A DNA stretch of 15,537 nucleotides from Candidatus Thorarchaeota archaeon (GTDB lineage Archaea > Asgardarchaeota > Thorarchaeia > Thorarchaeales > Thorarchaeaceae): positions 1-15,537 of the forward strand of contig JAEORG010000085.1 in assembly GCA_016841005.1 (NCBI GenBank). The letters run 5' to 3'. Position numbers and translations under genes: made by a program. Below the pieces are notes generated by a model. It did not search any database, was not told where the DNA came from, and worked only from the letters and a program-made list of their open reading frames with translations. Position 1 is the first letter of the stretch; the number at the start of each line of letters is the position of its first letter. Of this stretch, positions 2,278-6,162 are shown piece after piece.

Positions 2278-2649
2278 CTATGACTTAGTTTTCCTCTCAT
2301 AATCTTCAATTGCCTTATGAAGGGCATCAGCTGCGAGATTAGAGCAATGCATCTTTTGTGGAGGTAGACCATCTAAAGCGTCAGCAACCTGTTTTCTTGT
2401 TAATTCTTTAGCTTCCTCGATTGTCATTCCCTTGGCCATCTGAGTAGTCATGGACGAAGTAGCAATTGCAGCAACACAACCAAAAGTTTCTACCTTGATA
2501 TCAACGATAATATCATTCTCGACTTTTATAAAGAGCCGGAGCATATCACCGCACACAGGGTTACCAACCTCTCCAACACCATCAGGATTTTCCATTCTCC
2601 CCATGTTCTGTGGATTAGTGAAATTCTCTCTTACTTTGTCTGAGTACAT
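2278..2649 (-). CDS. iscU: IscU/NifU-type iron-sulfur cluster scaffold protein
   Basis: 123 residues, close to the usual size of IscU or the NifU N-terminal domain. All ligand motifs are present: GNPVCGD with Cys33 and Asp35, TFGC with Cys58 followed by AAIATSS, and HCS with Cys102 followed by NLA. These match the three cysteines and one aspartate that hold the nascent [2Fe-2S] cluster in IscU. The LPPQK stretch before Cys102 corresponds to the LPPVK chaperone-recognition motif of bacterial IscU, here with Val replaced by Gln. It acts in the cytosol, receiving sulfur from a cysteine desulfurase and passing clusters to apo-proteins. A GTGAGG ribosome-binding site precedes the ATG. The gene is on the same strand as an IscS homologue 1.8 kb upstream but separated from it by two other genes. 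An 11-base inverted repeat ends on its start codon. Confidence 0.95.
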   Translation of the reverse strand: MYSDKVRENFTNPQNMGRMENPDGVGEVGNPVCGDMLRLFIKVENDIIVDIKVETFGCVAAIATSSMTTQMAKGMTIEEAKELTRKQVADALDGLPPQKMHCSNLAADALHKAIEDYERKTKS

Positions 2650-2723: not shown

Positions 2724-3767
2724 CTATGTGCGTTTCTTCATCATAATCACAAGGGCAATCACAATGACTATTGCGATTCCTCCTCCTACAACAGCAAGTA
2801 ATAATGGATCAAAAGATGTAGGAACAGGAAGGACAGTGACGCTGAATGTTACAGTTCTATTGTTGTCCAAATTATCTCCGGCTGATACCTCTATTCCATA
2901 GACTCCTGGTTCCAATATGGTTGCGTTTGATATTATTCCGTCCCTGTCAATAGTGAAGTGTTCTGTATCATTCACAGCCCAAGCATTAGGATTGACATAA
3001 TGGACATCTGTAGCATTTATGCGATACTGAAATTTTTCTCCTTCATTGATCGTCTGATCAGTGGGAGGATCAACGAATCTTGGTCCCACTAAGTCGATAT
3101 CAACTGTATTGTTCACAACAACATTATCGAATGCTCCTGCAAAAGCAACTGCAAATACGTTCGATGTAGTTACCGTAAGGTCAACTGCCTCAAGAATAAG
3201 AGACCTGTTTAGATAGACACAGAAGTATCCCTTAAGATCTCTTGTGACATCAAGATGATGCCAACCAAGAGGATTCATGTCTTTCCTATCATGTACGATG
3301 CTCCCCCAAGTAGTATCGGAAGTTGCATACAACTCTTGAAAGTAAACTTGGTTAACATCCGGATCGAATACAACTTCATATGCATCTTGAGAATAACCAG
3401 TACCAATAGCAGCAGTTTCAATGATTTCTATGCCTGTAGGACGATTGACGTATACATCAATGGACCAAGTCCCGTACACTACTGAGCTGTTATGCCCTGC
3501 GATGTTCATGTAGTCTTCACCCTGAGAGTAAACTATACCATCAATCACTGTATAATTCGGTTCATACCCCTGAAACTCATGAGTAATCCATTCATCCATA
3601 TCGCCATCATCGAAGTTATCAGACCACATAAGTGCAGCATTAAGATATTTCTGTTCAGAGTTACGAAGGGGTTCAATATTACATTCAAGGGGACTTGATA
3701 ATCCAGCCATTCCGAATCCAAATATTAGCACAACCATAATAGAAAGAGTAAGATATTTCTTCCTCAT
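2724..3767 (-). CDS. Secreted, membrane-anchored protein with concanavalin-like and Ig/cadherin-like domains
   Basis: 347 residues. Residues 1-24 form a signal peptide (MRKKYLTLSIMVVLIFGFGM). Residues about 48-222 open with WSDNFDDGDMDEW and are rich in aromatic beta-strands, resembling concanavalin A-like/LamG jelly-roll domains that bind or cleave glycans; the closing AGAFDNVVV fits this. Residues about 230-314 form an Ig/cadherin-like domain (PPTDQTINEGEKFQY ... FTIDRDGIISNATILEPGVY ... VTFSVTV) similar to the linker domain of the neighbouring beta-helix protein. Residues 321-343 are a transmembrane helix followed by KKRT, so the protein is displayed outside the cell. A strong GGAGGT site 6 bases before the ATG (3774-3779) fixes the start. 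The substrate is unknown. Confidence 0.82.
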   Translation of the reverse strand: MRKKYLTLSIMVVLIFGFGMAGLSSPLECNIEPLRNSEQKYLNAALMWSDNFDDGDMDEWITHEFQGYEPNYTVIDGIVYSQGEDYMNIAGHNSSVVYGTWSIDVYVNRPTGIEIIETAAIGTGYSQDAYEVVFDPDVNQVYFQELYATSDTTWGSIVHDRKDMNPLGWHHLDVTRDLKGYFCVYLNRSLILEAVDLTVTTSNVFAVAFAGAFDNVVVNNTVDIDLVGPRFVDPPTDQTINEGEKFQYRINATDVHYVNPNAWAVNDTEHFTIDRDGIISNATILEPGVYGIEVSAGDNLDNNRTVTFSVTVLPVPTSFDPLLLAVVGGGIAIVIVIALVIMMKKRT

Positions 3768-3973: not shown

Positions 3974-4435
3974 TTACTCTTGATATAGCTTAGATAGTGG
4001 TTTTTCTCCCTTGTAGATATACTTGCACTCAGGATACAATGCGCATCCATAGAAGATACCCTTTCCATCTTTCTTCTTCTTTTTCAAGAGCGGGTGCCCA
4101 TGAGGGTCTCTATATTCTGTGATTTCAGCTTTGATCTCCTCAATCTTGTCTGTAAGGTTCTTTTTCCATCCTTCTATTCTTAGCGTCTTAGACGTAGTTG
4201 TGATGATTTTTGAGTCGCTGTACATCAGGACAGCTCTGATAGCATCTCTTCCCCGTTCTCTAGAAACTCCGGATCTGATGTCAATTGTTGAGTAGATCCA
4301 GATTGATAGGTCATTAGGAAATGATATCTTGTAAACTGCCTCGAAAACTCCCTTGGGTTTTATCAGCTTTGGATGGTATTTCTTTAAAGCGTCTTCAAAT
4401 TCTCTCTGACTAATATCCACATACCTATCAACCAT
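3974..4435 (-). CDS. Small protein with altered topoisomerase-type zinc ribbon
   Basis: 153 residues. The N-terminal part (about 1-105) is a compact alpha/beta region with a conserved-looking block, DIRSGVSRERGRDAIRAVL (53-70), followed by TLRIEGWKKNLTDKI (84-98). I associate this arrangement loosely with small uncharacterised archaeal and viral proteins but cannot name a family. The C-terminal part (110-141) follows the topoisomerase C4 zinc-ribbon pattern: HPLL, a GKGIFYGC stretch, then YPECKY with Cys131 and Cys137. The expected first C-P-x-C pair reads D-P-H, with His112 and His114 nearby, so metal binding may use His/Asp or be lost. A run of five lysines (118-122) suggests nucleic-acid contact. 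The start follows an AGGGA site. It lies 58 bases downstream of the IscS-like gene and may be co-transcribed with it. Probable DNA- or RNA-binding protein; role unknown. Confidence 0.75.
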   Translation of the reverse strand: MVDRYVDISQREFEDALKKYHPKLIKPKGVFEAVYKISFPNDLSIWIYSTIDIRSGVSRERGRDAIRAVLMYSDSKIITTTSKTLRIEGWKKNLTDKIEEIKAEITEYRDPHGHPLLKKKKKDGKGIFYGCALYPECKYIYKGEKPLSKLYQE

Positions 4436-4493: not shown

Positions 4494-5708
4494 CTACCAA
4501 TCATCCTCAGGAATATCGTGATGATGATCGTCCTCTTCTTCTGTATTAGCGAAATACTCACCATGCCTAATAGGGCTGAATTCCCTAAGTCTCTCAACCC
4601 CTGGAACTAGAGTATCAATGAATCCATCAACTTCTTCCTTTGTGTTGAATCTTGAGAAAGAGACCCTGAGCGACCCGTGAGATAGTTCTGGAGGAAGTCC
4701 TATGGCTTTCAAGACATGACTACCTTGCAATGTCTTCGAGGAACAGGCTGAACCAGTTGATACAGAGTAGCCAAACATATCAAGTTGTACAAGCATTGAC
4801 TCGCCTTCAATAAACTCCACAAGCATACTGAATAATCCCGGTACTCGTTTTTCTTGGTGACCTGTAAGCCTGATATCGGAGAGACTCTCCTGTGCCTTCT
4901 TAGTGATATAGCTTCTCAACTCTTCTAAGTGCTTTACATCATCCGGGTTCCATATCTCAACTGCCTTACCAAACCCGACAATCGCGGGAATGTTCTCAAC
5001 ACCCGGTCTCAATCGTCGCTCTTCGTCTCCACCTTCATGGAGTCTATCAATCCTTGTCTTCCTCCGGATGAAGAGCGCGCCAACACCTTTTGGTCCGTGG
5101 ATATGGTGAGCATCAACTGTGATCAAATCTACTGGTGTTTTTTCAGTATCAATTGGTACTTTCATATATGTCTGAGTTGCATCCATGTGGAAAAGAACTC
5201 CTGCTTCGTGGGTGATTTTCGCTATCTCCTCAATTGGTTGTAATGTTCCAATCTCTGCATTTCCATGTTGTATTGAAACAAGGACTGTGTCTTCTCGAAT
5301 CATTTCTTTCAACTGTTTCAAATCGATAAGTCCTACTTCATCAACGTCAAGAAATGAAATTTCGTAGTCCGCGTTTGATAGACGCTCACAAGACTTCAGA
5401 ACAGATTGCGTTTCAATTGGGGATGTTATGATATGTTTACCTCTAGTTTTATTCGCACGTGCAACACCCCGAGTAGCAAGGTTGTTAGATTCTGTTTCTC
5501 CAGAAGTAAATATAATTTCTCTAGGGTCTGCTTTGAGCGAATCAGCAATAATCCTACGAGCATTCTCCATACCAGTAACTGCGGCAACGTCCTGCGAATG
5601 ACTCAACTCTAATCCTGCTGTACCATAGTGTTCTCTAAAGTATGGAAGCATTACCTCGATGACCCGTTCATCAACTTGAGTAGAGTTCGCATTATCGAAA
5701 TATGCCAT
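4494..5708 (-). CDS. iscS: Cysteine desulfurase (IscS/NifS) homologue lacking the PLP-binding lysine
   Basis: 404 residues, aligning along its length with IscS. With E. coli IscS numbering minus 4, Thr72, Asp176 and Gln179 are kept in SGETESNN and HMDATQ. However, the Schiff-base lysine (K206 in SGHK) is His202 in DAHHIHGPKG. The ring-stacking His104 is Thr100, Asn155 is Ala151, and phosphate-binding Ser203 is Asp199. The codon at 202 is CAT, so the change is in the DNA. The sulfur-accepting cysteine survives: Cys322 in STGSACSS. Family members make persulfide sulfur from cysteine using PLP; this protein probably cannot do so normally. From memory, the A. fulgidus IscS that forms a complex with IscU also lacks this lysine. 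The tail (389-404) is acidic and His-rich (EEEDDHHHD). The gene follows the regulator by 7 bases, and its ribosome-binding site GAGGGTG overlaps the regulator's stop codon, so the two are coupled. Confidence 0.93.
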   Translation of the reverse strand: MAYFDNANSTQVDERVIEVMLPYFREHYGTAGLELSHSQDVAAVTGMENARRIIADSLKADPREIIFTSGETESNNLATRGVARANKTRGKHIITSPIETQSVLKSCERLSNADYEISFLDVDEVGLIDLKQLKEMIREDTVLVSIQHGNAEIGTLQPIEEIAKITHEAGVLFHMDATQTYMKVPIDTEKTPVDLITVDAHHIHGPKGVGALFIRRKTRIDRLHEGGDEERRLRPGVENIPAIVGFGKAVEIWNPDDVKHLEELRSYITKKAQESLSDIRLTGHQEKRVPGLFSMLVEFIEGESMLVQLDMFGYSVSTGSACSSKTLQGSHVLKAIGLPPELSHGSLRVSFSRFNTKEEVDGFIDTLVPGVERLREFSPIRHGEYFANTEEEDDHHHDIPEDDW

Positions 5709-5715
5709 ATCACCC

Positions 5716-6162
5716 TCAGTCCTTATCCTTACAAGCAGTACATTCTGATTCTACGTGTGCGCAATATTCCCGATGAACCTCACAAAGAGTTCCCTTATCC
5801 CTTAGAACTTCAATGATCCTGTTAATCTCTCGGGTCATAATCTCATATACGAATGTTCCTTCATCCCGTCCTGCCCAGGCATTGATGATAACATCAGCGG
5901 ACTTTGCTAATTCAGGGACAATATCATCTGGAATGTCAACTTGGTCTCCACGCGACCTCTTAGATTTATTTAGCTTGTATTGAGTAACTGCTGGTTCTGT
6001 AACTCCGAGCATCTGTGCAATTTGCTTCTGTGGGATTTCTTTGGAGATCATCACTCGTGCCAACTCTCTCCTGATTGCAGGTAGTACATACCATACTTCG
6101 ACTTCTTGGGGCATGAGCCAAGTCCGTTTTTTTCTTCTTTTTTGTTTACTATCTGTTGACAC
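5716..6162 (-). CDS. XRE-type helix-turn-helix transcriptional regulator with C-terminal four-cysteine cluster
   Basis: 148 residues, GTG start at 6160-6162 with GAGGGTGG just upstream. A basic N-terminus (KQKRRKKR) precedes MPQEVEVWYVLPAIRRELA, and the helix-turn-helix lies at about 45-62 (PQKQIAQMLGVTEPAVTQY). This layout fits the archaeal predicted regulators of COG2522. The last 25 residues hold Cys127, Cys134, Cys141 and Cys144 (C-x6-C-x6-C-x2-C) with His130 and His136, a plausible site for a metal or Fe-S cluster. The gene leads the IscS-homologue unit, with a 7-base gap to it. A role as a sensor that adjusts iron-sulfur or sulfur metabolism is an inference from the cysteines and context. 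An imperfect palindrome at 6182-6193 in its leader could be its operator. Confidence 0.88.
   Translation of the reverse strand: MSTDSKQKRRKKRTWLMPQEVEVWYVLPAIRRELARVMISKEIPQKQIAQMLGVTEPAVTQYKLNKSKRSRGDQVDIPDDIVPELAKSADVIINAWAGRDEGTFVYEIMTREINRIIEVLRDKGTLCEVHREYCAHVESECTACKDKD

Follow-up and report, generated by a model that had tools for sequence, protein, structure and literature searches.

IscS is regarded as the sulfur source of the iron–sulfur cluster (ISC) machinery. Lysine-less forms of IscS are already known, as parts of PMC7585200 describe for Archaeoglobus fulgidus and for IscS1 (MA0808) of Methanosarcina acetivorans, the latter being an IscS that adjoins IscU and misses the lysine for pyridoxal phosphate (PLP). 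In passages of PMC7585200 and PMC5176006, A. fulgidus IscS is reported to be without desulfurase activity owing to the change of this Lys to Asp, and to supply a Cys that ligates the [2Fe-2S] cluster in IscU. The minimal ISC system, MIS, includes a cysteine desulfurase according to a section of PMC12192291. Here we analysed an iscS-like gene on a DNA stretch of 15,537 nucleotides from Candidatus Thorarchaeota archaeon (contig JAEORG010000085.1), the whole of which is hereafter called the window. The encoded protein has lost the PLP lysine and a large part of the PLP pocket, with the sulfur cysteine left intact, and this state is shared by a clade of close relatives. By analogy with A. fulgidus IscS, we consider it rather probable that the window protein is a pseudo-desulfurase, a dimeric platform lending Cys322 to IscU, with the sulfur coming from elsewhere.

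PLP pocket of the window protein

The gene is located on the minus strand, a point that an earlier reading of the same sequence, the first-pass annotation, left unsaid. Its product carries an Aminotran_5 domain (237.1 bits, Pfam), and the fold-type I feature is present. The score was under the cut-off of all 25 NCBIfam families shown, the top one being TIGR03402 (408.2 vs 530.75 bits), with TIGR02006 at 362.3 vs 643.2 bits. By full-length alignment with E. coli IscS (from NC_000913), which was used as the residue ruler, five PLP-site residues were found to be replaced: His104 by Thr100, Asn155 by Ala151, Ser203 by Asp199, Lys206 by His202, and Thr243 by Val237. Retained were Thr76 (as Thr72), Asp180 (Asp176), Gln183 (Gln179), His205 (His201), Cys328 (Cys322), and Arg354 (Arg348). 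Among the features of active IscS/NifS proteins, the Schiff-base lysine is absent and the loop cysteine is present. Since the lysine is missing, no PLP internal aldimine can form at this site. In the IscS literature, pocket residues are assigned roles in PLP and substrate binding, including the phosphate cup and the site for the substrate carboxylate.

The residue table of the first-pass annotation, which gave the changes at E. coli positions 104, 155, 203, and 206 and the retention of Asp176, Gln179, and Cys322, was correct, and so was its central claim of a lost lysine and pocket beside an intact sulfur cysteine. Its list of losses was incomplete, however, as the replacement of Thr243 and the retained Arg354 were overlooked. 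The constant offset of 4 up to the lysine was borne out by the full-length alignment, and misalignment as the source of lysine loss is ruled out. In an AlphaFold2 model made from a 57-row alignment, the core was confident (mean 89), and residues 387–404 had a predicted local distance difference test score below 50, indicating that the C-terminal tail is predicted to be disordered. Confidence was low for the Cys loop at residues 321–326 too, as would be expected of a mobile loop.

Conservation and selection in the clade of relatives

Relatives were collected from 5.8 billion proteins, of which the 8000 candidates with the most words in common with the query were scored and the best 120 listed. 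Among these best 120, 63 were close (P0002–P0064; four of them fragments of 284–308 aa) at 63–96% identity, after which identity fell to 52%. Where named, the close relatives are for the most part Candidatus Thorarchaeota; one is labelled Hermodarchaeota, one Lokiarchaeota, and three Promethearchaeota. None of the 63 carries Lys at the lysine site, which reads H in 39, L in 14, R in 8, and V in 2. Among the 56 more distant matches listed, the site reads K in 40, T in 12, L in 3, and H in 1. Phage relatives were represented by 54 records, every one below 60% identity. In parallel, 148 genomes of unstated completeness, drawn evenly from the phylum of genome G002 and called Asgard here, were searched. 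Some match was found in 143, and the window type in 8, at 64–86% identity, the next listed matches being at most 48% identical. Among 30 loci read from this search, 8 were of the window type and 22 were others (20 with Lys and 2 with Leu). The lysine-site codon is CAT in the window, and CTT, CTG, CGT, CAC, AGG, AGA, CAT, and GTG in the 8 genomes.

The first-pass annotation had suggested testing whether His202 and Thr100 define a conserved clade. This pair is not the mark of the clade. With H, L, R, or V found at the lysine site across relatives, a special role of His202 is unsupported, and that of a new general base was rejected on the same ground. The clade is marked instead by Asp199 (60 of 63 relatives) and by His204 and E229-E230-R231-R232 (63 of 63 each), although E230 is common outside the clade too. 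Cys322 was conserved in all 62 relatives with a residue at this position.

The variability of each site was then compared between 60 clade proteins, including the window protein, and 40 lysine-bearing relatives; as the two sets are of unequal divergence, ranks and not rates were compared. Sites corresponding to His104, Asn155, Gln183, Lys206, and Thr243 stood at the 66th–79th percentile in the clade vs the 0–25th percentile in the lysine-bearing set. Ser203 was not relaxed, being replaced by a nearly fixed Asp, and zero entropy was observed in both sets for Thr76, Asp180, Cys328, and Arg354. The median site entropy was 0.62 bits for the clade vs 0.88 bits for the lysine set, the two again being unequally diverged. 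When the window gene was compared with its counterparts in the 8 genomes (the G071 copy compared over 385 codons only), synonymous differences amounted to 0.80–0.92 per site and nonsynonymous differences (dN) to 0.10–0.30; the synonymous sites are saturated, so that the dN/dS ratio (dS, synonymous) is not computable. The clade gene is under strong purifying selection. Because the pocket sites rose in variability rank while dN stays low, part of the pocket is released from selection, with the remainder of the protein constrained.

Linkage to iscU and other lysine-less paralogues

The gene for the IscU scaffold is located 1.8 kb downstream in the window. Downstream iscU on the same strand was observed in 7 of the 8 genomes with the window type, and was the very next gene in 5 of these 7; in the remaining genome, G014, the window-type gene stops 60 bases from the contig edge. 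This linkage supports the partnership with IscU that had been suggested from the window alone. The positions of the gene, its marked residues, and its neighbours are collected in Table 1.

Table 1. Features of the window, and examples of type B iscS–iscU pairs in other loci
Feature	Position	Strand	Remarks
Lysine-less IscS homologue, type A, 404 aa + stop	4494..5708	minus	Aminotran_5 with IscS/NifS fold; top relatives of known structure are chains of IscS/Nfs1/cysteine desulfurase
C-terminal tail, acidic and His-rich, with EDDW at its end; disorder predicted for most of it	4497..4562	minus	
Arg348 (E. coli R354), retained	4665..4667	minus	26/26 clade rows of tree set
Cys322 in loop STGSACSSKTL (E. 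coli C328)	4743..4745	minus	62/62 relatives with residue there, 1 gap
Val237 at E. coli T243	4998..5000	minus	V or I in 60/64 clade rows, window included
E229-E230-R231-R232 within clade motif GGDEERRLRPG	5013..5024	minus	63/63 relatives
Codon CAT, His202, PLP-lysine site (E. coli K206)	5103..5105	minus	No Lys in 63/63 clade relatives
Asp199 at E. coli S203 (phosphate cup)	5112..5114	minus	D in 60/63 relatives
Ala151 at E. coli N155	5256..5258	minus	Alignment
Thr100 at E. coli H104	5409..5411	minus	Alignment
IscU scaffold; Cys33, Asp35, Cys58, His101, Cys102 intact	2278..2649	minus	TIGR03419, 195 bits, cut-off 187.9
Putative membrane-anchored protein (by eye), 347 aa, between iscS and iscU	2724..3767	minus	No Pfam match; also in G127
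Protein of 153 aa, topoisomerase-type zinc ribbon, between iscS and iscU	3974..4435	minus	30.3 bits vs Pfam cut-off 32; also in G001
Helix-turn-helix protein (label by eye), Cys/His-rich C-terminus	5716..6162	minus	Relative upstream in 8/8 genomes; no Pfam or NCBIfam match
Type B IscS–IscU pair examples	L102:2003-6683, L103:7395-9344, L105		

The helix-turn-helix gene adjoins the window-type gene in all 8 genomes. Its product in the window ends in LCEVHREYCAHVESECTACKD, and as judged from sequence it is a candidate metal- or cluster-sensing regulator. No family match for IscA, HscA, or HscB was obtained among the 9 window proteins scanned, and in the window scans and the 8 loci the only isc genes in the vicinity were iscS and iscU, a result that for carrier genes applies to these regions and not to the genomes at large. 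The counterpart of the putative membrane-anchored protein in G127 (L200:2910-4007) was the only one found, the other seven loci compared being unmatched. Downstream of the intact iscU of G001, two short extra IscU fragments (L101, about 738-972; L186, L187) probably represent a decayed duplicate. Beside iscU of G003, regular repeats (SFNSRNLGSTSAT in translation; L104:125-622) resemble a CRISPR array.

A search with PF00266 gave 88 matches in the 8 genomes. Loci were available for 50, and 43 open reading frames from these matched a profile of the IscS family and entered the alignment; the other 38 matches, for which no locus was available, scored at most 43.1 bits. The window type was present in all 8 genomes, with L, L, R, H, V, R, H, and R at the lysine site. 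A second IscS, designated type B, was found in 7 genomes and not seen in G014; it has SSND (Lys to Asp) as in A. fulgidus IscS, vs DAHH in the window protein. On the same contig iscU follows the type B gene in 6 of the 7 (2.4 kb off in G001). The type B gene of G002 is cut by the end of contig C79, and an Aminotran_5 C-terminal piece and then iscU open contig C86. The type B iscU frames are of 257–293 aa, with a Pyr_redox-like stretch (25.5 bits, cut-off 22) in the C-terminal part of the one tested. A DsrE-family gene lies directly upstream of type B in 6 of the 7 genomes, not in G003, and genes of this family exist in all 8. A third lysine-less class-V protein, nearest to SufS (two of its members score 264.4 and 231.2 bits, vs a cut-off of 475.1), was detected in 7 genomes (L084, L087, L092, L147, L152, L155, L159), not in G127. 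Its lysine motif is replaced by SGNxGxM, and its cysteine loop reads RSGLLCAHP.

The first-pass annotation had advised a look for another desulfurase and for cysteine biosynthesis. A SufS-type protein with both lysine and cysteine is present in all 8 genomes, with a second copy in G127; its other aligned pocket residues up to His205 are kept, and one scored 429.2 bits vs the SufS cut-off of 475.1. A lysine-bearing IscS-type gene, in contrast, was found in G002 alone (L106:7014-11853); it stands beside PAPS-reductase-like and SMC-like genes (by eye) and resembles a DNA phosphorothioation island. As to the supply of cysteine or sulfide, no clear answer was obtained: SepCysS was over the cut-off in none of the 8 genomes (control, 2/14), and CysK/M in 3 (control, 11/14), the best match in G127 being 124 bits over part of the profile. 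SufB/SufD (PF01458) was found in 3 of the 8 (control, 14/14). It was not found in G127, whose matches sit on one contig of 3,157,242 bases, so that, within the IscU and SufB/SufD families (the Nbp35/ApbC type was not searched), the scaffolds of G127 are two IscU, both beside a lysine-less IscS.

Trees were constructed from 114 rows by a quick method, including 26 of the 60 clade proteins and with a long-branch warning for, among others, A. fulgidus and E. coli IscS, and from a thinned set of 57 of these rows. In the 57-row tree the window clade, the group of type B and A. fulgidus IscS, and a Thr-bearing clade were each monophyletic at 100/100. The window clade did not join A. fulgidus IscS but fell together with two proteins that carry the lysine and with the Thr- and Leu-bearing groups; the 114-row quick tree was in agreement. 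Presence of the lysine needs 3 changes on the 57-row tree, 2 of which are forced by well-supported branches. In the approximately unbiased (AU) test, uniting the window clade and type B in one clade gave p 0.0745. From these trees a single origin of the two types is disfavoured; direct membership of the window protein in the A. fulgidus group is unsupported, the AU test not having rejected it. The Thr-bearing clade of 13 proteins (P0077, P0084, P0086, P0103, and others), one of them labelled only as bacterium, has Asp100, Gln151, His179, Thr202 (one Leu), and Phe323 (ACF loop). As judged from its loop motif, it probably corresponds to the M. acetivorans IscS1 type and adds another lineage without the lysine.

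The C-terminal extension was compared after extraction by regular expression from the 60 clade proteins, the window protein and a few truncated or frameshifted records included. At least two His with at least four acidic residues were found in 53, at least three His in 45, and an acid-acid-Trp end in 49. This tail was absent from 12 of 12 Thr-bearing proteins and from 7 of 7 readable proteins of the type B/A. fulgidus group, and present in 3 of 5 Leu-bearing proteins; at least three His were also found in the tail of 5 of 62 lysine-bearing proteins. With this distribution, the His/acid tail as a strict mark of lysine loss is ruled out. Metal binding by the tail is a guess. Another lysine-less IscS in G131 and G125 (L122, L126), with Lys replaced by Leu (SHLIHGPKG), also ends in an acidic HHHH tail.

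Proposed function and comparison with known systems

The residue losses, their fixation in the clade, purifying selection, retention of Cys322, linkage to iscU, and the predicted IscS fold form the basis of the proposed pseudo-desulfurase function. Following the A. fulgidus example, a PLP–lysine aldimine would not form, and cysteine would not be desulfurated. The homodimer would bind its own IscU, and the loop Cys322, swinging into the IscU site, would serve the growing cluster for a time as an additional ligand or hold its sulfur. The sulfur itself would enter from outside the protein, most likely as free sulfide in anoxic habitats, or as persulfide that the SufS-type enzyme encoded in these genomes would supply. 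For sulfide as the source, the archaeal SMS system described in PMC12192291 offers a precedent.

Several points weigh against this proposal. No biochemistry was found for the window clade, and the function is argued by analogy, since the trees place the clade apart from A. fulgidus IscS. The equivalents of Thr76, Asp180, His205, and Arg354 are kept, Arg354 being lost in the A. fulgidus group; with these four residues in place, the pocket may still be able to hold a ligand, such as an amino acid. The record on A. fulgidus IscS itself, for which the primary papers are Marinoni 2012, Yamanaka 2013, and Pagnier 2015, may not be unanimous, as one paper title (entry 4hvk) calls it an unusual L-cysteine desulfurase. 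Between ligand, persulfide acceptor, and scaffold, sequence alone cannot decide.

In an alternative that we regard as unlikely, Cys322 would take sulfane sulfur from a SufS-type desulfurase or DsrE-like carriers and pass it to IscU, so that the protein would act as a sulfurtransferase and not as a ligand donor. The SufS-type protein and DsrE-family genes of all 8 genomes would suit such a relay, as would the position of DsrE directly upstream of type B and the absence of SufE from the 8 genomes (control, 5/14). However, in the loci read the window-type gene has neither DsrE nor SufS as a neighbour, and no isc gene was found beside the SufS gene in three regions of 13–15 kb (the start of one region not covered).

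Reuse of the pocket for another small molecule, such as free cysteine or a metabolite held by Arg348 and Asp176, would turn the protein into a sensor or an allosteric subunit of IscU. Arg348 is indeed invariant, and Asp199, Asp228, and Glu229, fixed specifically in the clade, are near the old pocket in sequence. The invariance of Arg348 may be structural, however, being common to lysine-bearing relatives, and the drift of the lysine site among H, L, R, and V leaves no single new catalyst there. We consider this reading quite improbable. Less credit still is given to an active, lysine-independent desulfurase using free PLP as an external aldimine, an option raised in the first-pass annotation. 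Asp176 is kept by all 62 relatives that have a residue at this position, Gln179 by 24 of 63, and Cys322 is intact. On the other side, tight PLP binding is unlikely because an acid, Asp199 at the Ser203 site, and Val/Ile at the Thr243 site stand where the phosphate would bind; His104 and Asn155 are also lost in most relatives, and part of PMC7585200 reports that A. fulgidus IscS is inactive, even though its loss is milder. Sequencing error, including a misread lysine codon at CAT, or a decaying gene is ruled out for practical purposes by the loss of lysine in 63 of 63 relatives, those of the 8 genomes included, and by strong purifying selection, no point in its favour having been found.

The pseudo-desulfurase reading may be extended, tentatively, to the lineage as a whole. 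This Asgard lineage might run two parallel lysine-less IscS–IscU pairs with complementary erosion, of the phosphate cup in one and of the substrate arginine in the other. IscS would then have changed from the enzyme that makes sulfur available into a cysteine-ligand and iron-loading platform whose acidic His-rich tail takes the place of frataxin, with sulfur arriving as sulfide or from a distinct source of persulfide. Frataxin was found in none of the 8 genomes (control, 1/14); this lends weak support to such a role of the tail, because archaea are said in part of PMC5176006 to lack frataxin generally.

In the open-licence literature searched, no title or abstract opening describes the window clade. 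The single paper there that contains both Thorarchaeota and IscS, PMC7554672, deals with ammonia-oxidising archaea. The clade itself, its wider pocket loss, the acidic His-rich tail, and the occurrence of several lysine-less paralogues together appear to be new in that literature. In Asgard archaea, relatives of eukaryotes, this clade is kept under strong selection without the catalytic lysine and beside IscU, which suggests that IscS can suffice in its non-catalytic capacity, in which it holds IscU and presents a cysteine. The window protein is a natural separation-of-function protein, and the sulfur supply of the A. fulgidus-type IscS–IscU pair becomes testable in a second, probably independent lineage.

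The window protein shares with E. coli IscS and human NFS1 the fold, the mobile Cys loop, and IscU as a neighbour or partner, and differs from them in the five replaced PLP-site residues including the Schiff-base lysine. With MIS it shares iscS and iscU without carriers, differing in that the window IscS is without the catalytic lysine. M. acetivorans IscS1 has the loop STGSACFS, as in the Thr-bearing clade, whereas the window clade has STGSACSS. The closest parallel, as the first-pass annotation had noted, is A. fulgidus IscS (PDB 4eb5, 4eb7, 4hvk, and 4r5f, the last being the D199K protein), in which the lysine is likewise lost, the loop Cys kept, and the gene linked to iscU. A. fulgidus IscS differs in having Asp at the lysine site and no acidic His tail, and groups with type B (100/100) and not with the window clade. 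A. fulgidus IscS and type B keep His104, Asn155, Ser203, and Thr/Ser243, and lose Gln183, His205, and Arg354 (one row gapped there). In the window clade, largely the reverse set is lost, with His205 and Arg354 kept and Gln183 present as Q or H.
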